A stretch of 64,000 bases of DNA. Origin: an uncultured Erysipelotrichaceae bacterium (GTDB taxonomy: Bacteria; Bacillota_I; Bacilli_A; Erysipelotrichales; Erysipelotrichaceae). The notes below the pieces were generated by a model that was given only the letters and a program-made list of their open reading frames with translations, searched no databases and was not told the DNA's origin. Made by a program: the position numbers and the translations under genes. The stretch lies in contig CAMNFS010000004.1 of the NCBI GenBank assembly GCA_946537255.1, positions 1 through 64,000 of the forward strand, written 5' to 3'. Numbering within the stretch: the stretch's first letter is position 1; every line of letters begins with the position of its first letter. This document shows positions 9,815 through 63,475 of the stretch, piece by piece.

Positions 9815-10510
9815 ATGAAAAGAGAAAAAGCAGAACGGTATCTGAAAATCGGTCTGTTCGGGGCAGTGCTGACACTGATCGGTGATCTTCTGATCGGGGC
9901 GGCGAAGTTTCCGGATGGAGCGGATATGATTCAGGGGTATTTCGGCATCGCCCTGACGATGCCTGCGTGGCGGCCGGTTCTTGGAGGACTGATTGGGTTT
10001 GCGGGGATCTGTTTGGAGTTTCCCGGCTTTCTGACAATCTGTCCGCTGATCGGTGATGAGAAGTCTTTGAACAGTCGGTTTTATAAGCTTGCGATCCATG
10101 TGTTTCTGGCTGTCGGGGGCGGAGCGGTACATCTTCCATGCGGTGTTTTCATGTGGCTTTATAAGTCTGTATCCGAAACGGCAGGAAAGGCTGCCGGATA
10201 TGACATCGCAATGAAATATCTGCTGTACTTTATGATGCCGGCCACGGCTGTATTCAGCGTGTTTTTCATCGGTGCCTGTGTCGTGCAGTTCATTGCCTTT
10301 TTCAAAGGACGTACACCGTTTCCGAAGTGGTACTGTGTATTCAATCTGCTGATTGGAAAGGTGGTTTTCAACATGGTGCGTCAGCTTGGCAATACCGCAT
10401 TCATCAACGGGATCGCGACTTCAAATATGAGCCTCAGTGCGATCATCATGTTTACGGCGCTGTTAGTGGGATGGAAGAAGTATGCAGTGGATAAGGAAGC
10501 TGATCAATGA
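9815..10510 (+). CDS. Multi-pass membrane protein, DUF6796-like
   Basis: Protein of 231 aa with about six membrane helices. The opening KIGLFGAVLTLIGDLLIGAAKF, the segment VHLPCGVFMWLYK and the late PKWYCVFNLLIGKVVF resemble the uncharacterised DUF6796 family, an assignment from memory of family appearance. I start at 9815, where AGGAGACAGGAAT precedes the ATG; a long upstream extension in the same frame (from 9671) is rich in charged and unconserved residues. Its stop overlaps the start of a relic reading frame (10482-10766). Function unknown. Confidence 0.65.
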   Translation: MKREKAERYLKIGLFGAVLTLIGDLLIGAAKFPDGADMIQGYFGIALTMPAWRPVLGGLIGFAGICLEFPGFLTICPLIGDEKSLNSRFYKLAIHVFLAVGGGAVHLPCGVFMWLYKSVSETAGKAAGYDIAMKYLLYFMMPATAVFSVFFIGACVVQFIAFFKGRTPFPKWYCVFNLLIGKVVFNMVRQLGNTAFINGIATSNMSLSAIIMFTALLVGWKKYAVDKEADQ

Positions 10511-38055: not shown

Positions 38056-38068
38056 TAAAATGAAGGCA
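38056..38068 (+). promoter_or_regulatory. Possible -10 element giving a near-leaderless mRNA
   Basis: TAAAAT (38056-38061) ends 6 nt before the ATG at 38068, the same geometry as at holA. There is no TG extension and no clear -35; the AAGG between the hexamer and ATG is too close to act as a ribosome-binding site. Confidence 0.35.
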
Positions 38069-39069
38069 TGAGAGAATACAGAAATCTGCTGTTTACAGCA
38101 TCTGTGCTTTGCTTTATCGCCGCTTATGGATTTTTCAATACCAATCCAGGCTTTTCTGTTTTTCTTCTGATTCTCGGTATTCTTCTGTTTCCGCATCGCT
38201 CAAGAAAAAACTATGGAAAGGAAAAGGGAATTCTTTCCGCTGTCCTTCTGTCGTTCTATTTCTTTGTCTATCTGCCGTTTTCCGTTCCGGTATCCGGGGA
38301 GTGTACCGTAACCTTTCTGGATGTCGGTCAGGGAGACTGTACGATTCTTGAATTCATGGATGGAAAAACCACAGTCATCGACGGAGGACTGAGTCAGTAT
38401 GGAACAAGGATCGTCTCTTTTCTTCAGAGCCGGAAAATCCACCGGATTGATCTTCTGATCGCTACTCATCTTCACAGCGATCATATCGGCGGATTACCGG
38501 ATATTCTTTCCTGTTTCCCAGTCGAGCGATTCATTGAACCCGTATATCCATCGGAACTCAGTCCGGATACAGCTGCAGTCCGTTATCTGAAACAGGCCTT
38601 GAAAAAAGAGAATCTCACACAGGAAGCGGTACAGGGAGGCAGGGTGCTGCTGGAAGGGGATGGGTACCTTCTGGAGGCTGTTTCCCCGGTCGCGTCCATT
38701 GATTCCCTGGATCTGAATGATTACTGTCTGATATTAAAACTCACCTGCGGCAGAAATGTGTTTCTTTTTACAGCTGACGCGGGATACCTGGCTGAGCTGG
38801 AAATACTGGATCAGAATCTTTCCGCGGATGTTCTGAAGATCGGACATCACGGTAGCTTTGGAAGTACCAGTACCGCATTTCTGAACGCGGTCAGTCCAAA
38901 ATACGGAGTGATATCCGTAGGAACGGATAATGACTATGAACTGCCGAATCCGTATGTTCTGAACCGGCTCCAGGATTATAACGTCCATGTTTTCCGTACG
39001 GATCAAAACGGTACCGTTACCATGCACAGTGATGGAATCTCCATAACAGTACAATGCGAAAAGCCCTGA
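38068..39069 (+). CDS. Stand-alone ComEC-like metallo-beta-lactamase-fold hydrolase
   Basis: Protein of 333 aa with two to three N-terminal membrane helices (about 6-22, 27-42, 53-72), then a metallo-hydrolase domain facing outward. FLDVGQGDCTILEF, TTVIDGGLSQYG, ATHLHSDHIGGL (metal ligands), FLFTADAGYLAE, VLKIGHHGSFGSTSTAFLNAVSPKYGVISVGTDNDYELPNP. This is the domain found at the C-terminus of ComEC, without the competence channel. Relatives are proposed extracellular nucleases or phosphodiesterases. It is the last plus-strand gene before the strand switch. No terminator is evident behind it. Confidence 0.87.
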   Translation: MREYRNLLFTASVLCFIAAYGFFNTNPGFSVFLLILGILLFPHRSRKNYGKEKGILSAVLLSFYFFVYLPFSVPVSGECTVTFLDVGQGDCTILEFMDGKTTVIDGGLSQYGTRIVSFLQSRKIHRIDLLIATHLHSDHIGGLPDILSCFPVERFIEPVYPSELSPDTAAVRYLKQALKKENLTQEAVQGGRVLLEGDGYLLEAVSPVASIDSLDLNDYCLILKLTCGRNVFLFTADAGYLAELEILDQNLSADVLKIGHHGSFGSTSTAFLNAVSPKYGVISVGTDNDYELPNPYVLNRLQDYNVHVFRTDQNGTVTMHSDGISITVQCEKP

Positions 39070-40047
39070 AACATGGTTGAAAACGGCAGGATAGTTGTTA
39101 CGGAAATCTCAGAAATTTCATTGATCCCAAAGGAAGAAAGACACTGAAAAAGATGATTGCAGAGCCATTCTGACTGTTGAATCGAAACCGTAGTTCACGA
39201 AAAAACATGTTGTTTTTCCAACAACGAAAATCCTCCGGTATTAAGCATCCATAAGGCTTCAAAAAATAAATTGGTTGAAAACGCAACTATTCATGCATGG
39301 CATGTTTTCCTATTGTTGCAAGGCCAACGAATTAAAAGCGGCATGAAATTCAACAGGTGTTGAATCGGTGCTGAAGACGGCGGATTTACGCAAAATGGTT
39401 ATCAGACGAAACATCAGCATCCATGTCCTGAAAAAATCCGCATCACACATACTGTCGATACAGAAACTTCATGATTGGACAAATGATCATCCAACAATCT
39501 CATAAGAAACAGAGCGATCACAGATGGTTATTCCATTCATAAAAGGGTTTATAAATTGTGAATATTTCACAAAATAAGATCTGCTGAGCAGAATCCGAAA
39601 AAGTCCGTATCCGTCTATGGATCTTTCAGGGAATGGAAATATGCTGCTGGCCGGAATCATCTGTGCCTTTCTGACGCTGTTTCAGATCTATCCAAAGACA
39701 ACCCATAAGCCTGAAACTGTCTCAGAGCATTCTGAGGAACAATTCAATTTGTGGATCGTGGATCCGATCCAATCAGAGGCTTTATGAGAGAGAAATTTTC
39801 ATAAGCGGAAAGACAGTTGTCCATGCCGATGCGTCTCAGCGAGTCCTGCAGCGTCTGTAAATAAAACACAGACAGCAGGAACCGACAATAAGTATCAGAT
39901 CAATTGAAAACAAACAACAAAGCAGAAAAAAACCCAGATTCAGAACATGAATCAATCATTGTCCGCAAATCACATATTGCCGAGCACTCAGAGACTCATC
40001 TGAATCAAGCTATGGCAGAAAAGCCCCCTCGTCCTTTTATAAATAGT

Positions 40048-40075
40048 ACTTCGCATAATGTATGTTATGCGATTT
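40048..40075. other. Putative dif site (XerC/XerD chromosome dimer resolution)
   Basis: 28-bp site with an 11-bp left arm (ACTTCGCATAA), a 6-bp spacer (TGTATG) and an 11-bp right arm (TTATGCGATTT); the inner eight bases of the arms are perfect inverted repeats. From memory, the 18-bp core 40052-40069 matches the E. coli dif core at 17 positions (only the last spacer base differs), and the left end ACTTC and inner right arm TTATG match Bacillus subtilis dif. It lies in the gap where plus-strand genes meet minus-strand genes, as expected at a replication terminus, and xerD is 17 kb away. Confidence 0.82.
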
Positions 40076-40473
40076 TTATATAAAGAGCTTTTGGGGGACT
40101 ATCCCCCTGTAACCGATGGTTCAGAAAACGGCCGCACGGAAGCTTTTGATTCCTGGAAAAGACTGTTTTTTGTAATTCATGAAACTGTCGATAAATACTC
40201 TGTGATAGAAATCAGAGAAAAATCTTTTAGTTCTGAGCGATTCCAGGTATGCGTCTGTCTGATGAGGATATGATCCTTAAAGAAATAAAACAGACTGTTT
40301 ATCTTCAGCTTTGACATTCTTCTGATCTTTCTGAAAGACAGTTGCTGCCTGTTCCTCAGGAGACGTATCGAATGCAGTGATTATAGTTGAATCATCCAAC
40401 CGTTAGATAAAAACAGTGAAAGGATGCCCTGAGAGCCTGGAACAAGTGAACTTCCCTTTCTGTTGTTCCAATC

Positions 40474-40516
40474 AGAAAAAAGACACGGATCATCACGCAG
40501 TTTCGAACCGTGTCTT
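40474..40516 (-). terminator. Intrinsic terminator of the subtilase gene
   Basis: On the minus strand, AAGACACGG pairs with CCGTGTCTT across a 19-nt loop (stem 40480-40488 and 40508-40516), followed by a T-run. Confidence 0.82.
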
Positions 40517-40542
40517 CCGGTTATTCACCATGGTCTTTATGA

Positions 40543-43500
40543 CTATCTGACATAGATGGTGTATTTCTTTGATTTTCCATCCGGAGAATAGAATGTAATG
40601 ACAGCTTTTCCGGTCTTGTTTGGATAAGTATAAATCCAGACAGGATAGCACATGCCGTAGTGCATCATATCTTTGTGATCCGGATCACTGTAACTCATTG
40701 GAGCGGCGGCATTGTAATCAAGATATACGCCAAGCAGGTCCCGGTCGGAAGTCTTTACCTCCACTCTTGCCGGAGTATCCACAAACAGACTGAGTTTTTT
40801 GGAACTGTCGACCGTAATTTCTGTAAACGGTTCGAAAGGTTTTGACTCACTGTTTCCGAATGCCCAGACACTGAGCGGCTTTGCAAGCCAGACGGTTGTT
40901 TCCGCATCATAGCCTGTTCCATCCGCAGAAACAGCCTTGATCTTTGCCTGAACGAATCCCTTATCGAATTCTGCAGCCTCAAGGATCTTCTTATTCAGAC
41001 TGAGAACCCCGTTCTTCAGTGTGACTGCCTTGAGCTCATTCACTTTTTCCAGAATGCTGGTGGATTTTTTATTGATATCCGTAAATGTGACATCCTGCAG
41101 TATGAACTCCGCTTTCTTTTCACTTGGCTTACCATATGTGCTTCCATAACTGACCAGTTTATTGAGATTCATGGACTTCCCAATTGAAAGCGAGAGTTTC
41201 TCAGCGCCGCCGAACTTTATGAAGGAAACCGGGACATGAACATTTACCGTAACAGTGTCCTTTTTTCTGGAACCATCATTTGCAGTGCAGGTTATTCTGG
41301 CGGTTCCTTTCCCAACGGCTGTTACCAGTCCATTGTCATCCACAGTCGCGACCTTGGGGTTGCTGGAGGTCCATACCGGCGGAATCTCATTACCTGTTAT
41401 CTGTGCAGTCAGCTGGGTCTGATTATGCTTTCCGTTGTAAACCGGACTGTTTGGAATATTCTTTGTGAAGATCGTAATGGAGGTGATATCCCCTTTCTTA
41501 TTTCTGACAGCCCGGGGATCCTCACTCAGAAGTACAAGAGATGTGGCTTTCCCATCTACCCTTACGGTTTTTTCACCGTAAATGGCTGATCCGTCTGATG
41601 CCGTCGCAACAACGGTGAATTCTGTACCGGCGGGTACTGATTTTCCTACCTTCAGCGTACCGTTCTTCGTGATACTGATTCCTTTGACCTCTTCTCTTAA
41701 GGACCAGGTTACGGATCTGTTCTTTGTACTGGATGGAAGCACGGATGCTTTCATGAGTGCACTTGCCCCCTGCGCCACTCCATCCTGACCGCTGATCGTT
41801 ACAGACTCAGCCAGCTGAACTGCAGTCACAGTACAGACAGCGCTCTTTTTGGATCCATCCAGAAGACGGAGCGTCACTCTGGCAGTTCCGGCTGCTTTTG
41901 CCTGAACTGTACCATCTGAGGTGACTTCCACAGTCTTTGGATCGGAACTGATCCATTCATGTTCCACTGCGGAGAGATCAACCGGATTGCCTTTGACATC
42001 CTTCAGAGTCCCGATCTGAATCCGGTCAGAGCCGATGATTCCTGCGTTAGCAGAGAATTTCAGTGACAGCTTCTGATTTTTCAATGTAAGAGATCCTATT
42101 TTTACCTTTGCAGGTTCAGGAGCATAGGTGTGAATAGTTATGGAAGAATTCTTTCCCAGTACACCCAGCCCGCTGACTGCGGCAGCGTTCAGAGTGACTG
42201 TACTCCCCTTTGGAAGCGTATCTGCGTACAGAAAGGTGTCTTTCTCAAAGATTTCGCCGTGGATCACCTCTTTGTTCCTGATGACCGGTTTTTTACCATC
42301 CGTGGAAAAAAGAATAGTGCTGTTCAGCTTCTCCTTTACCGGCGTAATCATGATATAAGCCCCCTGCGGAAGACTCTTCTCAAACGAAGTGATCGGCTGA
42401 TCCTCCTTGTTGAATATCTGAATCTTCACTTCCTGCTTTTCGTTGTCAAACATGTTTTCCATGTTCAGAATTCCCGCACCCATGCCTTCATCGGGACACG
42501 GAACCGCGGATTTTTTCAGTACCGCACGGCATTCCTCCGGACTGACGTGGCCGTGAACACTCATATACAGTGCCAGAGCCCCGCTGACAAGCGGTGTTGA
42601 AGCAGAGGTTCCGTTCATCCAATTGTAATAATTGTTGTACGGCTTATTGTCACTGGACCAGCAGGACCACATCTGTACGCCGGGTGCTGAGATGTCCACA
42701 TCCTTGCCATAATTGGAAAAAGGAGCTCTTCTTCCATTTCTGTCTACGGCAGCGACACAGATGGTTTCCTTGAATGTCGCTGGAAATACCCTGATATTGG
42801 TACCGTTGTTGGAGGCACTGCAGACCATCGTGATTCCTTTGCTGTAAAGGGTTTTGATCACCTGCTCTTCTTCCGCGGAGTATTTCTTGGCGGAAAGACT
42901 CATATTGACAATGTCGCAGTTTTCCTGCATGGCGCGGTTGAGCCCGCGAATCAGATTTGACCGCTTGTATGTGGTTTTTCCCAGGAAGACATCCATCGCA
43001 ACGATCTGGACATCCGGTGCTATTCCGGCCCCTCCGCTTCCATTGTCAGCGGCTGCTCCGATATATCCGGCCACTTCCGTTCCGTGTCCGCTTCCATAGT
43101 GTCTTACATCTCCCATGTCAACCATGGTGGTGTTATGTCTCAGTTCATAATGAAGATCATTTGTACCGCAGTCAATAACACCGACCTTGACCTTATCACT
43201 TCCGGTTGTCACATTCCATGCGGCATAGGTTCCGATCATATCGTGATACCACTGAAAGGAGGAATTTGTCGGATCCTTGAGATAGGTATCGGGGTCCTTA
43301 AATGCCTCTTCAACCCATCCCGACCAGTCTCTTGCCTTTGGAAGGGATTCCAGGGATTCCGTTCCCTCTTCGTATTCGATATCCGGTTCGATTTCACTGA
43401 GATAGTCCGGTTCCACAAAGGGAAGGCGTTCATCCTCAAGACATGCCAGAACCGCATCCTTAACTGTGATCTCTGGATCGGTAAGCGTGATCTCGCCGAC

Positions 43501-44040
43501 CCCGTCCCTGAGACAGGAAAGCTCGCCATGATAGATCTCTGCCGCAGTTTCCGCATAGGCTTCATCTTCGGTAAGAACAATCAGCGTCCCGGGTTCATAA
43601 TCAATGCCTTCCGTACTTTCCTCCAGCTGCCCTTTCACATCGTATTCAAGACAGTTTCGGCGCAGGGTCAGATCGGTTTCGGAAGGTTCAAAACCATCAG
43701 GAACAGCAAACCGTGGGGATTTCTCCTCCGGTTGGCTCACAGTCTCTGTTACTTCTTCCTCATTCTTTTCTTCTTCGCTGTCATTTTCCGGTATTTCGAC
43801 AGCCGCATCACTTTCCGTGTGTTCTTCCTCTGAAACGGATACGTCTTCTTCCAAAACCTCTTCCACCGCAGGTTCATCTTCTGTTTCCGGTTGTGAAACC
43901 GGTTCGATGATCTCGGACTGACCGGTTTCTTCTTCTGAATCAGTCGGGGAAGCTTCTTCCGCACAGACTGTGCTGACGCCCATGGTCAAAGCAAGCAGCG
44001 TGCTGATGAACATCGTATAGGGAGTGTTTCTATGCTTCAT
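40543..44040 (-). CDS. Secreted subtilisin-like serine protease with bacterial Ig-like domains
   Basis: Exported protein of 1165 aa. A signal peptide (about 1-27, ending in VCA) is followed by a very acidic Glu/Ser/Val-rich region (28-110) and a prodomain-like stretch. The S8 protease domain has the triad Asp290 (VGVIDCG), His319 (GSGHGTEVAGYIG) and Ser479 (NGTSASTPLVSG), with the oxyanion Asn in CSASNNGTN. A chitobiase-like domain is next, then at least two BIG2-type Ig-like domains (EWISSDPKTVEVTSDGTVQAKAAGTARVTL and PVWTSSNPKVATVDDNGLVTAVGKGTARIT). It ends TIYVR with no LPXTG motif or membrane tail. AAAGGAG precedes the ATG. Its target may be the neighbouring surface protein or host/polymer substrates. 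Confidence 0.93.
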   Translation of the reverse strand: MKHRNTPYTMFISTLLALTMGVSTVCAEEASPTDSEEETGQSEIIEPVSQPETEDEPAVEEVLEEDVSVSEEEHTESDAAVEIPENDSEEEKNEEEVTETVSQPEEKSPRFAVPDGFEPSETDLTLRRNCLEYDVKGQLEESTEGIDYEPGTLIVLTEDEAYAETAAEIYHGELSCLRDGVGEITLTDPEITVKDAVLACLEDERLPFVEPDYLSEIEPDIEYEEGTESLESLPKARDWSGWVEEAFKDPDTYLKDPTNSSFQWYHDMIGTYAAWNVTTGSDKVKVGVIDCGTNDLHYELRHNTTMVDMGDVRHYGSGHGTEVAGYIGAAADNGSGGAGIAPDVQIVAMDVFLGKTTYKRSNLIRGLNRAMQENCDIVNMSLSAKKYSAEEEQVIKTLYSKGITMVCSASNNGTNIRVFPATFKETICVAAVDRNGRRAPFSNYGKDVDISAPGVQMWSCWSSDNKPYNNYYNWMNGTSASTPLVSGALALYMSVHGHVSPEECRAVLKKSAVPCPDEGMGAGILNMENMFDNEKQEVKIQIFNKEDQPITSFEKSLPQGAYIMITPVKEKLNSTILFSTDGKKPVIRNKEVIHGEIFEKDTFLYADTLPKGSTVTLNAAAVSGLGVLGKNSSITIHTYAPEPAKVKIGSLTLKNQKLSLKFSANAGIIGSDRIQIGTLKDVKGNPVDLSAVEHEWISSDPKTVEVTSDGTVQAKAAGTARVTLRLLDGSKKSAVCTVTAVQLAESVTISGQDGVAQGASALMKASVLPSSTKNRSVTWSLREEVKGISITKNGTLKVGKSVPAGTEFTVVATASDGSAIYGEKTVRVDGKATSLVLLSEDPRAVRNKKGDITSITIFTKNIPNSPVYNGKHNQTQLTAQITGNEIPPVWTSSNPKVATVDDNGLVTAVGKGTARITCTANDGSRKKDTVTVNVHVPVSFIKFGGAEKLSLSIGKSMNLNKLVSYGSTYGKPSEKKAEFILQDVTFTDINKKSTSILEKVNELKAVTLKNGVLSLNKKILEAAEFDKGFVQAKIKAVSADGTGYDAETTVWLAKPLSVWAFGNSESKPFEPFTEITVDSSKKLSLFVDTPARVEVKTSDRDLLGVYLDYNAAAPMSYSDPDHKDMMHYGMCYPVWIYTYPNKTGKAVITFYSPDGKSKKYTIYVR

Positions 44041-44085
44041 ATGGATTCTCCTTTTTATTCAGGGTCATTTTGATGAGATGAAGAA

Positions 44086-44091
44086 ATTATA
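44086..44091 (-). promoter_or_regulatory. -10 element of the subtilase gene
   Basis: TATAAT on the minus strand, about 45 bp before the ATG, downstream of the previous gene's terminator. No clear -35. Confidence 0.45.
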
Positions 44092-44131
44092 AATCATCCG
44101 GATTCATTCTGCGAGAAAGACTTCCCGAATC

Positions 44132-44159
44132 AGAAAAAGGACTTTTCAGCCCTTCTTCT
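44132..44159 (-). terminator. Intrinsic terminator of the repeat surface-protein gene
   Basis: On the minus strand AGAAGAAGGGCT-GAAA-AGTCCTTTTTCT makes a 12-pair stem (two G-T pairs) whose 3' arm carries the T-run. It separates the two surface-protein genes into independent units. Confidence 0.7.
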
Positions 44160-44172
44160 GATGATTCACTGA

Positions 44173-47100
44173 TTATTCTTCGCTGATGTCATCATCTTCT
44201 TCCTTGACCTGCTTGGTCAGAACAAGAATCAGCCCGGCGATTAACATGAACAGGACTGCTCCGCCGCCGATCAGAATTCCTGTCGGGAATTCCTTTTTCT
44301 TAACGGCAGACGCGGTTTCGTTATCCGGCACCAGCACAATCCCTTCCGTACTTTCACTGCCCGGTTTGATAACGGGTGTATTCGGAGAAGCAGAAGGCTT
44401 CAGATCAGTAGTATCCGGCTTTGCAGTGCTTCCTGAACCGGAGGAGCTGTTCTGGGACTGTGACTCGGTCCCATTGCTGCTCTGTGAAGGAGCTGCGGGG
44501 GTTCCGGTTCCATTACTGCTGGCTCCCTGATTGGAAGGCACTGCGGTGATGACTGGCGCACTGTTGGAAGATGGTGTGGATGCCGGGGCATAACTGCCGC
44601 CGGACCCGCTGCCGGAGGAAGGATTGGAACTGCTGTTATTTGTGATTTCCCGGTAGGTATTGGTCAGAGAAATGGAGAGAGGTGATTTTGCGGTATGCGT
44701 CTTTTTGACCTCAAAGGTTCCCGAACTTGCGATGCTGAGCGTAAAGCCGCTGATTGCCGCTGAACTGAGTTCTTCTTCCAGCACATATTTTCCGACCGGA
44801 AGATTCAGCCATGGTTTGGTTTCTCCGGCAATGAAGGAAACCCACGCATCCGCCTGACTGGAAGCTCTGGTGCCGTCCTGATAGTAATAGAAGCCGCTGG
44901 TGCTCTTGACCGCAATCCGGTACTGCTGTCCTGCCGCAGACATGGGAGCTCCTCTTACAATCTTGGTAATCAGGACATTGCCGGTATTCGAGTTGACGGT
45001 ATACCGGTTCAGAACATTCGCCGTCACTTTTTTCCCGCCTGCGACACTGTAGCTTCCGGTACCGGTCGTTTTCAGGGAATAGTTCTCAATTTCCGCATCC
45101 TTCGTATTCTCTTCCACCGTATAGATACCGGCAGGAAGATTATTCCAGTTTCTTGTTTCCCCTGCCTTGAAGCTGACATAATGCGGGGAAGTTCCATATA
45201 CGGAACCGCTGGTCCGGTAATATCTGCCATATGCATCCTTTACCGCAATCCCATAGGTCTTTGAGGACGCGGAGGATGGAGCGCCGCTTACGGTATTTGT
45301 GACACTCAGTGTTCCCGCGGAGGAATAGGTATTTTCAATATCCACTGTCTTTGTTCCGGTATCGGAAAGAACGATCTTTCCGGTTCCTTCAACATTCAGG
45401 GCATAGCCGCTGATCAAAGCGGACTCCAAATCCTCTTCCAGTGTATAGGTACCGGCAGAAAGCCCTTCCCAGCTTCTGCTTTCGCCGTTATGAATCGTGA
45501 TGTAAACCGGAGAAGTACCGGCAATGGTTCCATCTGACTTGTAATAAGTCCCTGCCGCATCCCGCAATGCAATCCGGTAGGCTTTGGAATCTGCGGAGGA
45601 AGGTGCGCCATAGACATAAAGATTTACTACAAGATCACTTCTTCTGGCCCTGTAGTTATTGTGAACTTCCGCTTCATTCAGCGCACTTGTGCTGACCGTA
45701 ACCTCACCGGTTCCCTTCACGTTCAGTTCATAGCCATCAATCTGGGCGTGATCAAGATCTTCCTCAATGTAGTACGTGCCATCCTTCAGGCCATTCCAGG
45801 CAATGGATTCCCCTGCCAGGAAGGAAACATAGTCCGGCTGCGGCCCGGCGATACTTCCGTCTGTGGAATAGTAGACATTGTCTCCATCCCGCAGTGCGAT
45901 CCGGTATTCCCGGTTCTTTTCCTTTGCCGGCAGACCGCTTACGGTCTTGGTAATGACAAGAGATCCATCCACTTTGGTATAGACAACAGTATCCGTGAGT
46001 TCAGCAGGATGATCCGCGGTTTTTGTTTCATCTACCTGAACATATCCTTCCTTCGGATCTGTATGGTGTGTCACTTCATAGCCTTCTATCTCAAGATCCG
46101 CCATGTCGATATCCACGGCATAGATTCCTGATGGAAGATTGATCCAGCGGCTGGGATTACTGAGAGATACCGGAATCCAGATCGATTCCTGTGTTTCCGC
46201 GATAGAACCATCCGGGCGGTAGAATTCCATTGTCTCCGTATTTCTGAGAGCTGCCCGGAATTCCTTCTTCTCTGCTTCTTCGGGAACCGGGTAGGAACTG
46301 GATCCGCTTTCCAGGAACAGGGTGAGATCAAATACTCCCTGATCCTTACGGTAGATGGTTTCAACATCTCTTGTGATCACAGCAGGTTCATCGGAAATGC
46401 TGAACTCCGTATCGCCTGTAAATTCGTGGACATATCCCCTGACAGATACCTCGGCTTCATCTTCCAGAATGACATAGTCACCTTCCGGAAGATGATTCCA
46501 GACGGCGGAATCCTTTCTTCCATGGAATACAACAAAGGCATCCTCAGGCGTTTCAGCCTCTTTTCCATCCGGCAGATAATACGCCCCGTCTTTGCCCAGT
46601 ACGGCAATCCTGTAAGAAGAAGGAATCTCTTCCTCTTCAGCACCGGAAACGGTGTGAGAAATGGTGACACTGCCGCTTTCGGCTGTATATTCGCATGCAA
46701 ACAGGACTTCGGAAGTCTGCTTTGGATCAGCTGCTGCAGTAACAAGTGCGCCTTCTTCCTCATCATACGGATTTCCGTTTACTCTGACTGAAAACCCGGG
46801 TTTTGCAAGGTTCGTTGCCGCAAAAGCAATCTCTGTTCCGGAAGGAATTTCCTTAAGGGTCCACACAAACGGATCCGTATCCGTACCGGTTCCTTCTTCC
46901 GCTGTTTCCGCGGTCATGATTCCATTTTCATATCCGTTGGTAATACGGAAATCGGGAATCACACTCAGTCCGGAAAACGAAGCTTTTACCGTAATGGATG
47001 CTTTTTCTGCGGATGCTTTGCGGGCGGAAAGAAACAGTTCCGTTCCATTCAGATAGGTATTGCGAACCATGGATTCCGTATCAGAAGAGATGCGGAATTC

Positions 47101-48702
47101 AAATGGCTCTGAATCCTTCTCATATCCTTCCGCGGCTGTGATCTCCCGGAGGGTATAGGTTTTATTCTCTTCCAGCGTCCATCCGGATTCCGTACTTCCT
47201 TTGACAAGGAAACGGCCGTTATGATCCGTTGTGAATTCCACCGGATTTCCAAGCTGATCCATGACGGGACCGTTTTCATCAAAGAGACCCCATACCGCGC
47301 CGGCAACTCCGGTTTTCGGATCTTCAGCGTCTGTTTTGACGATGGAAATGGAAAGAGGCTCCGTTTTGGATTCCTCAGGAAGGTCCTTGCCGTATTCTGA
47401 CACGGTTTCATCCTTTGAATCTGTTTCTTCGGCTGTTTCAGAAGAATTCTGGTTTTCCTGAGGATTCTGGATCGTTTCTTCCGGATTCGTTTCATCCTGA
47501 ACAATAGATTCCGGCTGGATTACTTCCTCTTCAGGCAGCGCTTCACAGCGAATGGAAATGACATAGGTACTGCCCTCTGTATCGGTAACTGTGAGCGTTC
47601 TTTCGCCTTCGAAACTGTGATCCGCCCGGATGATCCAGTCCTCTCCATAAGGTTCAGCCGCAAGCACGGAACTGTCTGAACTGCGCACATCCGTCAGTGA
47701 AGAAGCAGAAATGGAAAGCTCATTCAGAATGGATGAAAGACTGACCTCACTTTTCTCCCGGATCACCCAGGAATAACTGTCATAGACATGTGAGAGAGTA
47801 TAACTTACACCGAACGCGGAAAAGCTTTTGCCGGTGTATCGGATTTCCTGAATTCCCCCGTTTCTGACAGAGATGTTGCCATTGAGCACTTCACCCTTTC
47901 CGCTGTCTGAAACACGGACAATCCTGGCGGAATGAATGGATGAACTGCTGTCGCCTGCCTGAATCGGAGAGAGGAAGGTCATGGTGATGGAAACCGAGTC
48001 AGCCGGCTTGATCCGCTTCTCCCCTTCCGTGAAATAAACATCATAGAGAACAAACTCAGATCCTTCCTTCAGACCAAGTCCGGAAAAGGAACTGACCGCT
48101 TTCTGATATGCCGAACTGCCTGGCGCAAGATAATCCGCATGAAGTACGGTATTTTCACTGAGACCGGCAGACTTCTTCGCGCTGGCAGTTACATTGACCG
48201 AACCATCTGAGACAGTAAGCCGGACTGCGGATGCCTGACTGGTGCCGGATTCTGTTTTCTTCGAGTCTGTTTCCTTTTTTCGATAATGAAAGGTAAACCG
48301 AATTTCCGATGTACCTGGAAAGACATCGGAATAATAAACCGGAAGACCGGCTTTGGAAGTATAGTACTGACTTCCGATCGCACTGACACTGTCCGTAACG
48401 GCATCCGGACGGACAACAGTCACTTCTCCGGTAAAGACATAGCCCGTTCCAAGATCCCCGGCCATTCCGGATACCGCCGTCGGAGTTTCATTGACGATCA
48501 GTGTCCCGGATTTCTGTGTATTGTCTTCATCACAGAGATAAACGGCGGAAAGAACAGGACCGGCCGGTACTGTTTCATATGCGGGGGAAGATCCTTCTCC
48601 CTCTCTGCCGTCTGTTTCAGCCGATACCGCGGTACCGCTCTGAAAAAACAGATTCATGGAAAGCAATGCTGTAAACAGCTTTTTTACGGTAGTTTTCATC
48701 AC
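44173..48702 (-). CDS. Large repeat surface protein with SpaA-type domain and C-terminal membrane anchor
   Basis: Exported protein of 1509 aa, probably an adhesin or stalk. The signal peptide ends near AVSA (residue 28). Residues about 30-400 form an unrecognised N-terminal region. An acidic Glu/Asn/Gln linker (about 400-445) precedes a SpaA/Cna-B-type domain (ISIVKTDAEDPKTGVAGAVWGLFDENG to TLREITAAEGYEKDS, about 446-545), which in pilins often makes a Lys-Asn isopeptide bond. Six tandem repeats of about 110 residues follow (about 671-1354). A Ser/Gly/Asn/Pro linker leads to KEFPTGILIGGGAVLFMLIAGLILVLT and an acidic tail. The anchor resembles a sortase signal but lacks a true LPXTG and ends in Glu/Asp rather than Lys/Arg. 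A structured leader precedes it. Confidence 0.88.
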   Translation of the reverse strand: MMKTTVKKLFTALLSMNLFFQSGTAVSAETDGREGEGSSPAYETVPAGPVLSAVYLCDEDNTQKSGTLIVNETPTAVSGMAGDLGTGYVFTGEVTVVRPDAVTDSVSAIGSQYYTSKAGLPVYYSDVFPGTSEIRFTFHYRKKETDSKKTESGTSQASAVRLTVSDGSVNVTASAKKSAGLSENTVLHADYLAPGSSAYQKAVSSFSGLGLKEGSEFVLYDVYFTEGEKRIKPADSVSITMTFLSPIQAGDSSSSIHSARIVRVSDSGKGEVLNGNISVRNGGIQEIRYTGKSFSAFGVSYTLSHVYDSYSWVIREKSEVSLSSILNELSISASSLTDVRSSDSSVLAAEPYGEDWIIRADHSFEGERTLTVTDTEGSTYVISIRCEALPEEEVIQPESIVQDETNPEETIQNPQENQNSSETAEETDSKDETVSEYGKDLPEESKTEPLSISIVKTDAEDPKTGVAGAVWGLFDENGPVMDQLGNPVEFTTDHNGRFLVKGSTESGWTLEENKTYTLREITAAEGYEKDSEPFEFRISSDTESMVRNTYLNGTELFLSARKASAEKASITVKASFSGLSVIPDFRITNGYENGIMTAETAEEGTGTDTDPFVWTLKEIPSGTEIAFAATNLAKPGFSVRVNGNPYDEEEGALVTAAADPKQTSEVLFACEYTAESGSVTISHTVSGAEEEEIPSSYRIAVLGKDGAYYLPDGKEAETPEDAFVVFHGRKDSAVWNHLPEGDYVILEDEAEVSVRGYVHEFTGDTEFSISDEPAVITRDVETIYRKDQGVFDLTLFLESGSSSYPVPEEAEKKEFRAALRNTETMEFYRPDGSIAETQESIWIPVSLSNPSRWINLPSGIYAVDIDMADLEIEGYEVTHHTDPKEGYVQVDETKTADHPAELTDTVVYTKVDGSLVITKTVSGLPAKEKNREYRIALRDGDNVYYSTDGSIAGPQPDYVSFLAGESIAWNGLKDGTYYIEEDLDHAQIDGYELNVKGTGEVTVSTSALNEAEVHNNYRARRSDLVVNLYVYGAPSSADSKAYRIALRDAAGTYYKSDGTIAGTSPVYITIHNGESRSWEGLSAGTYTLEEDLESALISGYALNVEGTGKIVLSDTGTKTVDIENTYSSAGTLSVTNTVSGAPSSASSKTYGIAVKDAYGRYYRTSGSVYGTSPHYVSFKAGETRNWNNLPAGIYTVEENTKDAEIENYSLKTTGTGSYSVAGGKKVTANVLNRYTVNSNTGNVLITKIVRGAPMSAAGQQYRIAVKSTSGFYYYQDGTRASSQADAWVSFIAGETKPWLNLPVGKYVLEEELSSAAISGFTLSIASSGTFEVKKTHTAKSPLSISLTNTYREITNNSSSNPSSGSGSGGSYAPASTPSSNSAPVITAVPSNQGASSNGTGTPAAPSQSSNGTESQSQNSSSGSGSTAKPDTTDLKPSASPNTPVIKPGSESTEGIVLVPDNETASAVKKKEFPTGILIGGGAVLFMLIAGLILVLTKQVKEEDDDISEE
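44640..46690 (-). repeat. Six tandem protein-coding repeats of about 110 codons
   Basis: Copies begin near 46690, 46345, 45980, 45635, 45325 and 44990 (reading leftwards). Shared pattern: a strand like LVITKTVSGAPSS, then YRIALRD..GxYY..DGTxAG, then VSFxAGExxxWxxLPAGTYxLEEDLxxAxIxGYxL and TGTGxxxV. Copies 3-6 are close to each other; copies 1-2 are diverged. The DNA copies differ enough that the array is old rather than recently expanded. Confidence 0.85.
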
Positions 48703-57028: not shown

Positions 57029-57961
57029 TCATTCTTTCTGCTTTGAAGGGACTGTTACAGACAGATCCTCGCTGTCCAGATTGCCCGGATGGCATTTCCG
57101 GTAGCTGTCAATCATCTGCCGGCTCGCGACATGGGTGTAGATTTCGGTGGTACGGATATCCGAATGTCCCAGCATCTCCTGAATGGATCTCAGATCCGCG
57201 CCGCCCTGCAGAAGATGGGTTGCATAGCTGTGGCGCAGCTTATGAGGGGTAATGTGTTCCTGAAATCCCAGAGCGGCACATTTCTCCCGCAGAAGCTTTT
57301 CCACGGATTCCCTGGTCACCTTCCGACCGAACCGGTTCACAAAGAACAGATTGCTTTTCCGCTTCATGAATACCGGCCGGACCGTAAAGCAGTATTTTGA
57401 AATCACTTCCGCTGAGCCCTTCGGCAGCGGTACGATCCGTTCCTTATTTCCCTTGCCAAGCACTCTGACAAAACCAGTGTCAAGATCCACCCGGTTCATC
57501 GTGAGATCGCACGCTTCAGAAATCCGCAGACCGCAGGCATAGATCATTTCCAGCAGGGCATGCTGAAACAGCTGCCGGGGATCACTGTCATCAAAGGAAT
57601 CCATAAGCGTCCGGATCTGATTGATGGTTGCGTACACCGGAAGCGATTTCTCACCGCGGTGAATTTCCAGATTCTGAGAAGGATCATTTTCATCAAACAG
57701 AAAATTCAGATATCGATGAAAGGAACGGATGGAAGCAGCCATGCGGCCGATGCTGGTTCCCTTCTTGTCCTCACTCTGCTCAAGAATGAACCCTTCGGTC
57801 ATATCCTCCTTGATCTGTTTGGTGTCCTTGATCCCCTGTTCCGCAAGAAATGCCGCATACTGTTTCAGATCATTCTCATACCCGGCAATCGTACGGGGAG
57901 ATTTTCCCTGATTGATCGTGAGATCCGCAAGATAGCGGCTCATCGCCTTATCTATTTTCAT
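57029..57961 (-). CDS. xerD: Tyrosine recombinase XerD
   Basis: Site-specific recombinase of 310 aa that resolves chromosome dimers at dif. The N-terminal SAM-like domain begins MSRYLADLTINQGKSPRTIAGYENDL. The catalytic residues are in ACGLRISEACDL (Arg), LGKGNKERIVPL (Lys), HKLRHSYATHLL (His-x-x-Arg) and LGHSDIRTTEIYTHV (His and nucleophile Tyr). I chose ATG 57961 (GAGG 7 nt upstream); an earlier GTG is in frame at 57973. It overlaps dinB by 14 nt. Size and motifs fit XerD better than a phage integrase. Confidence 0.93.
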   Translation of the reverse strand: MKIDKAMSRYLADLTINQGKSPRTIAGYENDLKQYAAFLAEQGIKDTKQIKEDMTEGFILEQSEDKKGTSIGRMAASIRSFHRYLNFLFDENDPSQNLEIHRGEKSLPVYATINQIRTLMDSFDDSDPRQLFQHALLEMIYACGLRISEACDLTMNRVDLDTGFVRVLGKGNKERIVPLPKGSAEVISKYCFTVRPVFMKRKSNLFFVNRFGRKVTRESVEKLLREKCAALGFQEHITPHKLRHSYATHLLQGGADLRSIQEMLGHSDIRTTEIYTHVASRQMIDSYRKCHPGNLDSEDLSVTVPSKQKE

Positions 57962-59120
57962 GAGCTGCCTCACTGGCCCGGATCAGCCGGATCCCGCCTA
58001 GCTCCTCATTGAGATCCCGGAGAACGGAAATGGTTTCTTCCCTTCGGGCCACAGATTCATCAAACAGATTCAATTGCTTCACGGAAGAAGAATCCGTGTG
58101 AAAATCCGAAACGGAAACACCAAGCAGCCGGACCGGTTCCTGATCCCAGTTCTCATTGAACAGCGCAATTGCCCGCTCATACAGATCATCCGCCTTCCAT
58201 ACCGGTTCCAGAAGACGGCTGCTTCTGTCACAGCTTGAAAAATCATAGTATTTGATCCGGATACTGAGAAGATATCCGGCTTTTTTCGCTCTGGCAAGAC
58301 GATGGGAAAGGGTTCTTGAAAGGGTTCTGATCATCCCTCTCAGTTCTTCGTAATCCGTGATATCCTCAAGGAACGTTTCGGAAACTCCCATACTCCGGGA
58401 ATCCCAGTCCTTCATAATGGTGCGGTCGTCATGGCCGTTGGCCCTTTCCACCATGAGCTCCGTATTCTTTCCGAAGATGGGCCGAAGCTGTTCAATATCC
58501 CTGTAGTTGGCAAGATCCCCGATCGTATGTATGCTCAGATCCTCCATATATGGAAGTGTCTTGGCTCCGACCCCGCGCATTTCCCTGATCGGAAGCGGCC
58601 AGAGTTTCGCCGGTACTTCCCGGATTCTCAGAACCGTGATGCCATTTGGTTTTTTCATATCACTCGCCATCTTGGCAAGAAACAGATTCGGGGCAACGCC
58701 GATCGAACAGGAAAGTCCCAGTTCCTCTTTCACCCGTTTCTGAAGCTGCCAGGCAAGATCCAGCGGATGTTCAAAGCGCTGAATGGCATCTGTCATATCA
58801 GCATAACACTCATCAATGCTCGCCTGTTCCATGTCTTCCGTATAGCTTTCGACAATCCGCATGAACTCTGTGGATTTTTCCCGGTAAAAATTAAAATGCG
58901 GCGCGACAATGATCAGATCACGGCAGCGCCGTTTCGCCTCCTCGATCGGCATGGCGGAATGTACACCGAAAGCCCGCGCTTCATAGCTGCAGGTACTGAC
59001 AACGGATCGGCGGGTCGTTCCGCTGACCGCGATCGGTTTACCAAGAAGAGAGGGATCCAGAAGAATCTCACAGCTCGCAAAAAAAGCATTCAGATCAATA
59101 TGAAAATAGACTCTGCTCAT
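57948..59120 (-). CDS. dinB: DNA polymerase IV (Y-family)
   Basis: Translesion polymerase of 390 aa. VYFHIDLNAFFASCEILLDPSL (metal Asp and steric gate), SYEARAFGVHSAMP and EQASIDECYADMT (catalytic Asp-Glu) form the palm. LAKMASDMKKPNGITVL and GVGAKTLPYMEDLSIHTIGDLANY are the thumb, and the little finger follows. A beta-clamp-binding peptide, QLNLFDES, lies near the C-terminus. It overlaps recN by 4 nt and xerD by 14 nt, so a repair operon is likely. Confidence 0.95.
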   Translation of the reverse strand: MSRVYFHIDLNAFFASCEILLDPSLLGKPIAVSGTTRRSVVSTCSYEARAFGVHSAMPIEEAKRRCRDLIIVAPHFNFYREKSTEFMRIVESYTEDMEQASIDECYADMTDAIQRFEHPLDLAWQLQKRVKEELGLSCSIGVAPNLFLAKMASDMKKPNGITVLRIREVPAKLWPLPIREMRGVGAKTLPYMEDLSIHTIGDLANYRDIEQLRPIFGKNTELMVERANGHDDRTIMKDWDSRSMGVSETFLEDITDYEELRGMIRTLSRTLSHRLARAKKAGYLLSIRIKYYDFSSCDRSSRLLEPVWKADDLYERAIALFNENWDQEPVRLLGVSVSDFHTDSSSVKQLNLFDESVARREETISVLRDLNEELGGIRLIRASEAAHENR

Positions 59121-60763
59121 GATTTCCTGCTTCTTTCATACAGCTCCCCTGCCGCCGCAAGACTCGCAGAGGTGATTTCTCCGCTGGCGATCACTGCCAG
59201 CTGACGGATCACTTCATCCTGATCCAGTTTCCGTACATGGGTATGTGTATGTCCGTTTTCCTCAGACTTCGATACGAAATAATGATGTTCTGCGGAAGCG
59301 GCAACCGGAGAAAGATGAGTCACCGCGAAAACCTGAGCGCTTTCGGAAAGTTCCTGCATTTTTCTTCCGATGGCGGAGGCAACCGGACCGGAGACGCCGG
59401 TGTCTATTTCATCAAAGATAACAGTTTCAATGCCTTCAAGCTCGGTAAAGACCGCCTTAAGCCCAAGCATCAGACGTGAAAGCTCTCCTCCGCTTGCCGT
59501 TTTGGAAAGAGGCTTCAGTTCCTCCCCCTGATTCATGGAAATCAGAAATTCCACCCGGTCAAGACCGTTCTCATTTGGCTCACTGTCTCTGATATCCGTA
59601 TGAAATCCAGCATGTTCCAGCATGAGATCACGAAGATGAACTGCAATCTTTTCATCCAGTTTCCCGCTTTCTGAACGCCGCAGGGCGGAAAGCTTACGGG
59701 CGGATGCTTCAAAAACGGAATAGGCGGAACGGATTTTCTGATCCATTTCTTCCAGATAGTCCTGCCGCCGCAGAATCCGGTGAACCCGCTGTTCGAGCTC
59801 CTCCTTTTTCTCCAGAATCTCGGAAATGGAATGGCCGAACCGGCGTTTCAGCTTCTGAATCAGAAACAGACGCTCCTCCATGGAATTGATTTCCTCTTCG
59901 GAAAGATCCATGGATTCCAGGGCGTTTCGAAGACTGTCCATCGCATCAGCGATTCCATAGTAAGCGTCGTTGACAGAGGTACGGGCCTGATTGAACAGGG
60001 CGTTATCATCAAGAGACTGCACAAGCCGGTTGGTTTCATAAAGCTGTGCGGAAAGCGACTCATCATACGTATTCAGAATCGAAGAAAGCTTCTCGTATTC
60101 ATTTTTCAGTACCTTGTACTGTTTTTCCTTCTCAAGAAGTTCCTCTTCCTCATTTTCCCGAAGATCGGCAGATTCAATCTCACTGATCTCATGCCGGAAG
60201 AATTCCAGATCGCTTTCATTGTAGGTTTCCTGAAGTGCCTTTTCCTTTTCTTCAACCAGTTCACGCCAGGCATGATACGCATCTCTCGTCTCTTCCTTCA
60301 GCTCACTGTCCTTGAGAAACTGATCCAGAAGATGAATATGACTCGCGGTATTCAGCAGATACTGGCTGTCCCGCTGCCCATGAATGTCAATTTCATCCGC
60401 GAGAACTTCCTTCATGAGAGAAAGCGTCGCGATGCGGTGATCAATCCGAACAACACTCTTTCCGGAACGGTGAATTTCACGGGTAAAAGTTACCTCCTCA
60501 TCACAGTCAAATCCCGCTTCCTTCAGGACACGCATGGCATGTCTGTTTCCGGAAAGATCAAAGGTGCCCTCAACAATCGCGCGTTCCGCGTTGGCGGCGA
60601 TGAGAGCGGTGCTTGCCCGATCGGCTCTCAAAAGCGAAATGGCGTCGATCAGTATGGACTTCCCGGCGCCGGTTTCTCCGATGAAAGCACTGAATCCCTT
60701 CTGAAACTCAAGGCTCAGTTCATCAATCAGAACAAAGTTTTCAATATACAAATGAAGAATCAT
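59117..60763 (-). CDS. recN: DNA repair protein RecN
   Basis: SMC-like ATPase of 548 aa that acts early in double-strand-break repair. Walker A is IGETGAGKSILIDAISLL (28-45). DEIDIHGQRDSQYLLN is the Q-loop region, coiled coil spans about 150-360, and the signature and Walker B are TASGGELSRLMLGLKAVF and TVIFDEIDTGVSGPVASAIGRKM. It starts 4 bp after the dxs stop. The argR and tlyA-like genes usually found between dxs and recN in Bacillota are absent. Confidence 0.95.
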   Translation of the reverse strand: MILHLYIENFVLIDELSLEFQKGFSAFIGETGAGKSILIDAISLLRADRASTALIAANAERAIVEGTFDLSGNRHAMRVLKEAGFDCDEEVTFTREIHRSGKSVVRIDHRIATLSLMKEVLADEIDIHGQRDSQYLLNTASHIHLLDQFLKDSELKEETRDAYHAWRELVEEKEKALQETYNESDLEFFRHEISEIESADLRENEEEELLEKEKQYKVLKNEYEKLSSILNTYDESLSAQLYETNRLVQSLDDNALFNQARTSVNDAYYGIADAMDSLRNALESMDLSEEEINSMEERLFLIQKLKRRFGHSISEILEKKEELEQRVHRILRRQDYLEEMDQKIRSAYSVFEASARKLSALRRSESGKLDEKIAVHLRDLMLEHAGFHTDIRDSEPNENGLDRVEFLISMNQGEELKPLSKTASGGELSRLMLGLKAVFTELEGIETVIFDEIDTGVSGPVASAIGRKMQELSESAQVFAVTHLSPVAASAEHHYFVSKSEENGHTHTHVRKLDQDEVIRQLAVIASGEITSASLAAAGELYERSRKS

Positions 60764-60767
60764 ATAA

Positions 60768-62627
60768 TTACTGAACTGTTTTCAGAATATCATCATACAG
60801 CAGATTCAGGTCAAATCCCGCCTCTTTTTTCAGAAGTGAGGCAGCCCCGTGCTGGATGTATTCATCCCCGATTCCATACCGCTTCAGCGGCATGGAAATT
60901 CCCTCATCACAGCAGGATTCCAGAATCGCTGAAGAGAGTCCGGATGCCTTCATATCGGTTTCATAAACAAAAACCGGAACATGCAGAGCGGCAATACGCC
61001 GGATGCATGCAAGATCCAGCGGCTTGAAGAAACGGGCATTTACAACCAGAACCGGAAGATCATTGATTCTTGCTTTTTCACTGATTTTCAGAACATCCGG
61101 TCCATAGCTGATTACCGCGGCCCGGATCGTTTCCGGCACATAGATCTCCTTCCAGGAAAGCGGAATGACCTCCGCTTTTTCAATGTTTCTTACATCCACT
61201 TCCCCTCTTGGATAACGGATGGCAAACGGATGATTCTGATGCAGAGCGGTGGCAATCATGTTCCGTGCCTCCTGGGCATCACAGGGCTGAGCAATGATGA
61301 GATTGGGAAGCGGCCGCAGAATACCGATGTCAAAGACGCCATGGTGCGTCTCTCCGTCTGCTCCGACCAGCCCGGCCCGGTCAATCCCGATCAGAACCGG
61401 AAGATCCATTCTGCATACATCATGGTTGATCTGATCATAGGCCCGCTGCAGGAAGCTGCTGTAGATACTGACAAACGGACGCAGACCGGAAATGGCCATG
61501 CCGGCCGCAAAGGTCATGGTATGCTCTTCGGCAATTCCGCAGTCAAAGCTTCGGTTCGGGAATTTCGCGAAAAATGTATCCAGCGCGGATCCATAGAGCA
61601 TGGCGGGTGTAAGCGCGACAATCCTTTCATCCTTTTCCGCAAACTCCGTCACGGTATCGGCGATCACAGCAGACCATGTACGGAACCCTTCCGGTGTTTC
61701 ATGAAGCGGTTTTCCCGTATCTCTGTCAAATGGCCCAACTCCATGCCAGGATCCCTTGAGATCCCTTTCGCACGGACCATAGCCGCGGCCCTTCTGGGTA
61801 ATGACATGAACAACGACGGGGCCTTCATGCGTCTTGGCAACTGAAAGTACCCGGATCAGATCACGGATATTGTGTCCGTCAACTGGGCCGAGATATTCCA
61901 GATTGAATTCTCCGAAGATTCCCCGGTCGATCACGGAATCCTTCAGCGCATCCTTGACATTCTTCATGCCATGATACATGACCATTCCAAAATCACTCCG
62001 CTTCAGAGACTCCTTCATCGTCATCTTCAGATTGTTATAGGCGGCAGCGGAACGAAGCCTCGCAAATCCGCGGGTCAGAGCGCCGACATTGGTGGAAATG
62101 GACATGTTGTTGTCGTTGAAAATAATCACCATGTTCCTCTGCTCACTGCCGATCTGATTCAATGCCTCAAGACTTTCACCGGAACCCATCGCGCCGTCTC
62201 CGATCACCGGCACAATAAAATAATCCTCTCCTCTGAGATCTCTGGCCGCGGCCATGCCAAGCGCCGCGGAAAGCGAGGTTGAACTGTGTCCGGCTTCCCA
62301 GACATCATGTTCGGATTCCCTGCGCTTCTGAAATCCGGAGAGTCCATGAAACTGACGGAGAGACTGAAAATCTTTCGCTCTTCCTGTCAGTATCTTATGT
62401 GTATAGGACTGATGTCCCACATCAAAAAACAGTTTGTCTTTCGGCGAATCAAAAACAACATGCATCGCGATGGTCAGTTCGACCGTGCCGAGATTGCTTG
62501 CGAGATGTCCGCCGGTTCTGGAAATGTTCTCAATCAGAAACTTTCTGATATCAAATGCGAGCAGAGTCAGATCGCTGACACTGAGATCCTTTAGAAAATC
62601 AGGATTCCGAATCTCTGTAAGATCCAT
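60768..62627 (-). CDS. dxs: 1-deoxy-D-xylulose-5-phosphate synthase
   Basis: First enzyme of the MEP isoprenoid pathway: pyruvate plus glyceraldehyde-3-phosphate to DXP, thiamine-diphosphate dependent. 619 aa. Visible: GGHLASNLGTVELTIAMHVVF (catalytic His), DVGHQSYTHKILTGR and SEHDVWEAGHSSTSLSAALGMA. VIGDGAMGSGESLEALNQIG and FNDNNMSISTNVGAL form the ThDP motif. DCGIAEEHTMTFAAGMA and IGIDRAGLVGADGETHHGVFDI complete the enzyme. It lies 8 bp after ispA. Confidence 0.97.
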   Translation of the reverse strand: MDLTEIRNPDFLKDLSVSDLTLLAFDIRKFLIENISRTGGHLASNLGTVELTIAMHVVFDSPKDKLFFDVGHQSYTHKILTGRAKDFQSLRQFHGLSGFQKRRESEHDVWEAGHSSTSLSAALGMAAARDLRGEDYFIVPVIGDGAMGSGESLEALNQIGSEQRNMVIIFNDNNMSISTNVGALTRGFARLRSAAAYNNLKMTMKESLKRSDFGMVMYHGMKNVKDALKDSVIDRGIFGEFNLEYLGPVDGHNIRDLIRVLSVAKTHEGPVVVHVITQKGRGYGPCERDLKGSWHGVGPFDRDTGKPLHETPEGFRTWSAVIADTVTEFAEKDERIVALTPAMLYGSALDTFFAKFPNRSFDCGIAEEHTMTFAAGMAISGLRPFVSIYSSFLQRAYDQINHDVCRMDLPVLIGIDRAGLVGADGETHHGVFDIGILRPLPNLIIAQPCDAQEARNMIATALHQNHPFAIRYPRGEVDVRNIEKAEVIPLSWKEIYVPETIRAAVISYGPDVLKISEKARINDLPVLVVNARFFKPLDLACIRRIAALHVPVFVYETDMKASGLSSAILESCCDEGISMPLKRYGIGDEYIQHGAASLLKKEAGFDLNLLYDDILKTVQ

Positions 62628-62635
62628 AGTTCCTC

Positions 62636-63475
62636 CTACCTGAAACGCGCTTCAATCCCCCGGATCATACTGATCAAAGAAGAAGCTTCGAATCCCCTGA
62701 ATCCTGCAATACGAATACAGCTTTCATCGTAAAGTTCCTTCATCATAGCGCGCGCCTTTTCCTCCCCAAGAAGAGACACGCTGGTCACCTTATGATTGCG
62801 GCTGTCACTGTTGCTTTTGCCAAGCTCTTCAGCAGTGGCTGTTACATCTAATATATCATCCTGTATCTGAAATGCCAGTCCTATCCGGTTTCCGACTTCA
62901 TGCCACGCATTCACAATCTCTTCCCCCTGGCCGGAAAGAACAGCCCCCATCATGAGCGGAGCAGAAAGAAGACATCCGGTTTTATAGAGATGAACCCGGC
63001 GGATCTCTTCAAAGGTATCCTGATCGCTTTCATTGATATCCAGACACTGCCCGTAGATCATCCCCGAAGGGCCGGCCATCTCAGAAAGGATTCCCACACA
63101 GCGCAGTACCCGATCAGCCGGTTCCCTTGATTCGGAGATCTGATGGAACGCTTCGGTCAGAAGGCCGTCACCGGCAAGAATAGCAGTAGCTTCATCAAAC
63201 TGAATATGATTGGTCGGCCTGCCGCGGCGCAGATCATCATTGTCCATGGCAGGAAGATCGTCATGAATCAGAGAATAGGTATGAATCATCTCAATTGCTC
63301 TTGCGAAAGGAATTCCGATGGATTCATCCTTGCCATACCCTTTCAGCACTTCAAACAGAAGAAGCGGCCGGATGCGTTTTCCGCCGGCAGTCAGGGAATA
63401 AAGCATGCTGTCTCTGACACGGCTTTCATGAACTTCATTCAAAGAAGCGGAAATGATTGCTTCAATATTCTCCAT
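62636..63475 (-). CDS. ispA: Polyprenyl synthetase (farnesyl diphosphate synthase type)
   Basis: Condenses IPP with allylic diphosphates; feeds undecaprenol and quinone synthesis. 279 aa. The first aspartate-rich motif is DDLPAMD (72-78) in HTYSLIHDDLPAMDNDDLRRGRPTNH and the second is DDILD (206-210). The Tyr five residues before the first motif fits a farnesyl-length product. GAGG lies 9 nt before the ATG, inside the end of xseB (14-nt overlap). Confidence 0.95.
   Translation of the reverse strand: MENIEAIISASLNEVHESRVRDSMLYSLTAGGKRIRPLLLFEVLKGYGKDESIGIPFARAIEMIHTYSLIHDDLPAMDNDDLRRGRPTNHIQFDEATAILAGDGLLTEAFHQISESREPADRVLRCVGILSEMAGPSGMIYGQCLDINESDQDTFEEIRRVHLYKTGCLLSAPLMMGAVLSGQGEEIVNAWHEVGNRIGLAFQIQDDILDVTATAEELGKSNSDSRNHKVTSVSLLGEEKARAMMKELYDESCIRIAGFRGFEASSLISMIRGIEARFR

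Follow-up and report, generated by a model that had tools for sequence, protein, structure and literature searches.

The question raised by this locus is whether a 28-mer lying between convergent genes is the site at which the host resolves its chromosome dimers, and what should be made of the tyrosine recombinase gene found a short distance away. The window (the whole 64,000 bp stretch of Erysipelotrichaceae DNA analyzed here) carries the 28-mer ACTTCGCATAATGTATGTTATGCGATTT at bp 40048–40075, and this is almost certainly the dif site of the host chromosome, a canonical XerCD/dif site for chromosome-dimer resolution. No dif study of the host family was found in the open-access literature searched; the assignment fixes the replication terminus and a dif consensus for this gut-associated group.

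A sequence-only reading had described the 28-mer as an 11-6-11 arrangement with 8 bp perfectly inverted inner arms, and both features are there exactly as described (ACTTCGCATAA-TGTATG-TTATGCGATTT, with the inverted segments at 40051–40058 and 40065–40072). Perfect 8-6-8 repeats are not rare by themselves, since the window holds five where about one is expected; it is the sequence and not the repeat that exceeds chance, as no second match with three or fewer mismatches occurs in the window, in 100 shuffles of it or in the 2.44 Mb genome. The same draft genome (129 contigs) contains the exact 28-mer once, and a position weight matrix (PWM) of the family, built with the host sequence included, gives it 44.5 bits compared to 9.2 for the runner-up site in the window. 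The resemblances to known sites given in that reading, 17 of 18 core bases in common with E. coli dif (GGTGCGCATAATGTATATTATGTTAAAT) and the ACTTC and TTATG motifs in common with that of B. subtilis (ACTTCCTAGAATATATATTATGTAAACT), are borne out by the sequences printed in PMC3025954. The central hexanucleotide differs by one base from the TGTATA of E. coli. Like the canonical sites of E. coli and of B. subtilis (where the recombinases are CodV and RipX), the host site is 28 bp long, AT-rich and intergenic, with the 11-6-11 layout, partial dyad symmetry (near-palindromic at 20 of the 28 positions) and CATAA...TTATG inner arms; also as in those systems it is present in single copy at the GC-skew switch of a genome that encodes two Xer recombinases and FtsK. 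Its right arm mirrors the left arm more closely than is the case in either E. coli or B. subtilis dif.

Table 1. Features of the window that bear on the dif assignment
Feature	Position (bp)	Strand	Basis or remark
dif site, 28 bp (11-6-11)	40048..40075	+	Single copy, one per relative, unconserved flanks, GC-skew switch
Left arm ACTTCGCATAA, presumed XerC-binding (by analogy with E. coli dif)	40048..40058	+	By PWM information, better conserved than the right arm across the family
Central hexanucleotide TGTATG, presumed strand-exchange region	40059..40064	+	6 bp as in canonical dif (PMC2731167)
Right arm TTATGCGATTT, presumed XerD-binding	40065..40075	+	Invariant core TTATG; outer part variable
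Non-coding strand-switch gap with dif	39070..40542		1.47 kb, no ORF >71 aa
xerD (tyrosine recombinase, 314 aa)	57029..57973	-	NCBIfam XerD 287 bits vs XerC 271; catalytic R-K-H-R-H-Y
dinB (DNA polymerase IV), upstream neighbor of xerD	57948..59120	-	NCBIfam NF002492 above cut-off
recN, xerD gene cluster	59117..60763	-	NCBIfam TIGR00634 above cut-off
dxs, xerD gene cluster	60768..62627	-	NCBIfam TIGR00204 above cut-off
Polyprenyl synthetase (ispA-like), xerD gene cluster	62636..63475	-	Pfam PF00348

The site is conserved among relatives, as the sequence-only reading had required of sister species. With a match defined as three or fewer mismatches from either of two consensus forms, 126 of 196 genomes of the family contain one copy each; the other 70 contain no match at this threshold, and diverged sites, draft gaps or the use of other sites are candidate explanations. 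Order-wide (second family included) one dif is present in 109 of 209 genomes, and class-wide, with a Bacillota-type consensus, in 91 of 198, spread over many families. Agreement among the aligned sequences drops to background beyond the 28 bp; reverse-strand matches were left in their original orientation for this comparison, so that agreement is underestimated within the motif as well as around it. Across relatives the left arm hardly departs from ACTTCGCATAA. The outer part of the right arm is TTATGTAATTT or TTATGTTATTT in most relatives, and the arm as a whole resembles TTATGTAAT in most genera and TTATGCGAT in that of the host and some more. Of the two arms, the left (XerC) one is the better conserved in the family sample, and in proteobacteria it is the other way round (PMC2731167); this comparison may be biased by the search threshold. 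The right arm has come close to mirroring the left (TTATGCGA) in the host genus and in several more, with both recombinases retained; TTATGCGA right arms are listed also for the dif sites of Bartonella and Xanthomonas (PMC2731167). The possibility that XerD has coevolved with the CG-type right arm was considered; the arm labels cluster on the XerD tree, yet many of its forks are unsupported, and no such claim is made.

The position of the 28-mer agrees with that of a terminus site. Genes run on the + strand and then on the - strand about the gap as the sequence-only reading had it, except that orientations are mixed up to ~6 kb. The predicted change in sign of the GC skew does occur near 40 kb, from values mostly between +0.05 and +0.15 (6–38 kb) to values of -0.02 to -0.14 beyond, and the cumulative skew is maximal at 39,398, 650 bp from dif. 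Besides the window's contig, skew was measured in sampled blocks of the complete genomes of two relatives, G031 (1,545,033 bp in one contig; dnaA at 362, dif at 696,859) and G126 (2,615,268 bp; dnaA at 137, dif at 1,420,525), and in both of these the 20 kb blocks that meet at dif change sign right there, with values of about +0.15/+0.18 on one side and -0.10/-0.15 on the other. Because the host genome is fragmented (129 contigs, of which the window's, C4, is 75,271 bp), the position of dif relative to oriC is shown by relatives only: in 25 of 27 single-contig genomes of the class dif lies 0.45–0.50 of the circle from dnaA. Some of these fractions use genome lengths given to the nearest 0.1 Mb, and the 27 genomes, being related, are not independent trials. 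The skew reversal and the location of dif opposite dnaA in complete relatives together support the earlier proposal that the window crosses the replication terminus. The two outliers lie at 0.387 (G421) and 0.174 (G130); in the latter, a single contig, dif is at C1:1574986 and dnaA at C1:88431 (0.17 of the circle apart), and rearrangement or misassembly are candidate causes. In G126 the skew is positive again at about 2.05–2.5 Mb of contig C1, in the second replichore (blocks sampled at 2.05, 2.35 and 2.5 Mb), which suggests inversions or integrated elements. The candidate FtsK-orienting motif GNGNAGGG occurs 77:7 in favor of the leading strand and ranks 7th of 168, where composition-matched motifs have a median ratio of 4.7. 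The polarity of this KOPS-like motif is thus just modestly above the prediction from composition, and KOPS/SRS octamers are few and confounded by composition.

The strand-switch gap that holds the 28-mer is flanked by a gene for a metallo-beta-lactamase-fold protein (38068–39069, + strand) and a subtilase gene (40543–44040, - strand), and an Rfam scan of the window gave no match. An inverted repeat that precedes T residues and lies between convergent genes could also be an intrinsic transcription terminator, and indeed the folding energy of the + strand is -10 kcal/mol (z = -3.5) and a terminator scan flags it. This explanation is nevertheless very improbable because relatives do not keep the stem: their usual form folds to just -4 kcal/mol, so that it is the sequence and not the pairing that is conserved. 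The single copy per genome and the tie to the replication terminus argue against it as well, and the upstream gene stops ~1 kb before the 28-mer. A terminator role would in any case be compatible with a dif role and would not exclude it.

It could be imagined instead that the 28-mer is not the resident dif but a dif-like attachment site that remained from an IMEX, an integrative element exploiting the host's Xer proteins. Some phages of other taxa do have att sites that resemble dif, and a single gut phage contig has the host dif motif beside an integrase gene, but the host genome has only one copy, none of the 126 relatives has a second site at three or fewer mismatches, and no annotated phage or integrase gene adjoins the host dif; an element-derived origin is therefore scarcely credible. 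The phage contig (L253:9081–10395, 39% GC) carries ACTTCGCATAATGTATATTATGTAATAA at 10368–10395, ~145 bp after the integrase-like gene, which suggests integration at dif in the host's bacterial group. Five of six viral-contig matches are small, GC-rich (57–61%) and filamentous-phage-like, and are unrelated to the host dif.

The proteins expected to act at a resident dif are encoded by the host. Its genome has two full-length Xer recombinases, both with the catalytic residues R-K-H-R-H-Y, and an FtsK gamma domain (FtsK_gamma, 101.8 bits). The recombinase on contig C113 has XerC as its best NCBIfam score and that of the window has XerD, although both scores are under the curated equivalog cut-offs. 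Gene order agrees with these names. The xerC gene has rpsB-tsf downstream in the host and trmFO upstream in G031 and G126, a context that matches the codV/xerC region of Bacillota; xerD is accompanied by dinB-recN in the window and is followed by deoB (phosphopentomutase) in relatives, the same order as ripX-deoB in B. subtilis. By analogy with the known systems, homologous recombination would join sister chromosomes into a dimer, on both dif copies the left arm would be occupied by XerC and the right arm by XerD, septum-loaded FtsK would bring the sites together and activate XerD, and two successive strand exchanges over the 6 bp center would yield two monomers. We infer the binding and cleavage of the host 28-mer by XerC and XerD, the assignment of the arms and the dependence on FtsK from this resemblance.

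In canonical XerCD/dif systems xerD is located elsewhere, whereas in most families of the host class it is linked to dif. The distance is 17.0 kb in the window, and the intervening genes encode, among others, two MscS-type channels, a macro-domain protein, a MatE transporter and two large surface proteins. The last two, both very large and on the - strand (40543–48702), are a 1165-aa subtilase with Big_2 domains and a 1509-aa protein with a SpaA prealbumin-like domain. Among the 87 genomes of the family in which dif and the best XerD match lie on one contig the median gap is 1.4 kb, with 64 genomes at 5 kb or less and 86 at 20 kb or less; the modal gap is 1.2–1.3 kb, and where its content was inspected deoB occupies it. 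The xerD gene reads toward dif in all 87 and is on the right (XerD) arm side in 84. In the second family of the order xerD is within 2.5 kb of dif in nine of 12 genomes, at 11 and 36 kb in two, and unlinked in one (G196). Of 64 genomes from 17 more class families, 51 carry dif and a Xer gene on one contig; in 36 of these (11 families) the distance is 20 kb or less, and in all 36 the gene is on the right-arm side and reads toward dif. Linked members thus occur in twelve class families besides the host's, or 13 in total, while in families f13, f14, f18 and f22 the distance is 51–235 kb. When named XerD-similar loci were inspected with flanks of up to 10 kb, a dif-like motif was nearby only in one Acholeplasmataceae and two Erysipelotrichaceae/Bacilli records, and was absent from the Bacillus, Staphylococcus, Enterococcus and lactobacillus xerD loci.

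A recombinase gene linked to its site is described, in the literature found, for single-recombinase systems only, XerS/difSL and XerH/difH (PMC5357621, PMC2731167), and no earlier report of xerD-dif linkage in the host group was found in the open-access literature. XerS/difSL of streptococci and lactococci resembles the host in having the recombinase gene near its own site at the terminus, but difSL is 31 bp with an 11 bp center and XerS acts alone (PMC5357621), whereas the host has a 28 bp canonical dif with a 6 bp center and two recombinases; the recombinase linked to dif in the window scores 113 bits as XerS compared to 287 as XerD. In XerH/difH of epsilon-proteobacteria the gene is usually linked to the site as well, but there a single, phylogenetically distinct recombinase acts on a difSL-like site (PMC2731167). 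Neither single-recombinase description fits the host, which has two Xer genes, as do most of its relatives. The dif site as such is ordinary. The class-wide linkage is a modest novelty, and it blurs the reported divide that sets single-recombinase modules, in which gene and site are linked, apart from classical two-recombinase systems, whose genes are scattered.

The most plausible reading is that xerD was already linked to dif at the terminus in an ancestor, and that most families have retained this arrangement and some have lost it. It is rather probable that, dif itself being real, the linkage is mere inherited synteny of the terminus without function: other genes near dif are likewise conserved (recN, dxs and dinB on the right, and purF on the left in family f2), the distance has grown to tens or hundreds of kb in the four families named above with neither partner lost, and the constant orientation could be due to nothing more than vertical inheritance. 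Nor is that orientation proof of function, because leading-strand bias predicts that xerD should read toward dif, and constant sidedness is expected if the interval has not been broken by inversion. Against mere synteny, the linkage persists in 13 families despite changes in the intervening genes and the left flank; in 43 genomes compared around dif, the two families of the order share xerD, deoB, dinB and dxs on its right but differ in what lies on its left. That this two-recombinase system is kept as a xerD-dif unit at the terminus, xerD lying on the XerD-arm side and pointing at dif, with the linkage under selection as in the XerS/difSL and XerH/difH modules, is a tentative and on the whole unlikely alternative, for which terminus-timed xerD dosage or a local supply of XerD suggest themselves as examples of a selective basis. 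The families in which the linkage has decayed offer natural contrasts on whether it matters. Relative to the replication axis, the dif-xerD block is oriented as in the window in 15 cases and oppositely in eight. In three genomes of family f2 (G233, G228 and G227) xerC-type matches also lie 45–60 kb from dif, so that both recombinase genes are terminus-proximal there.
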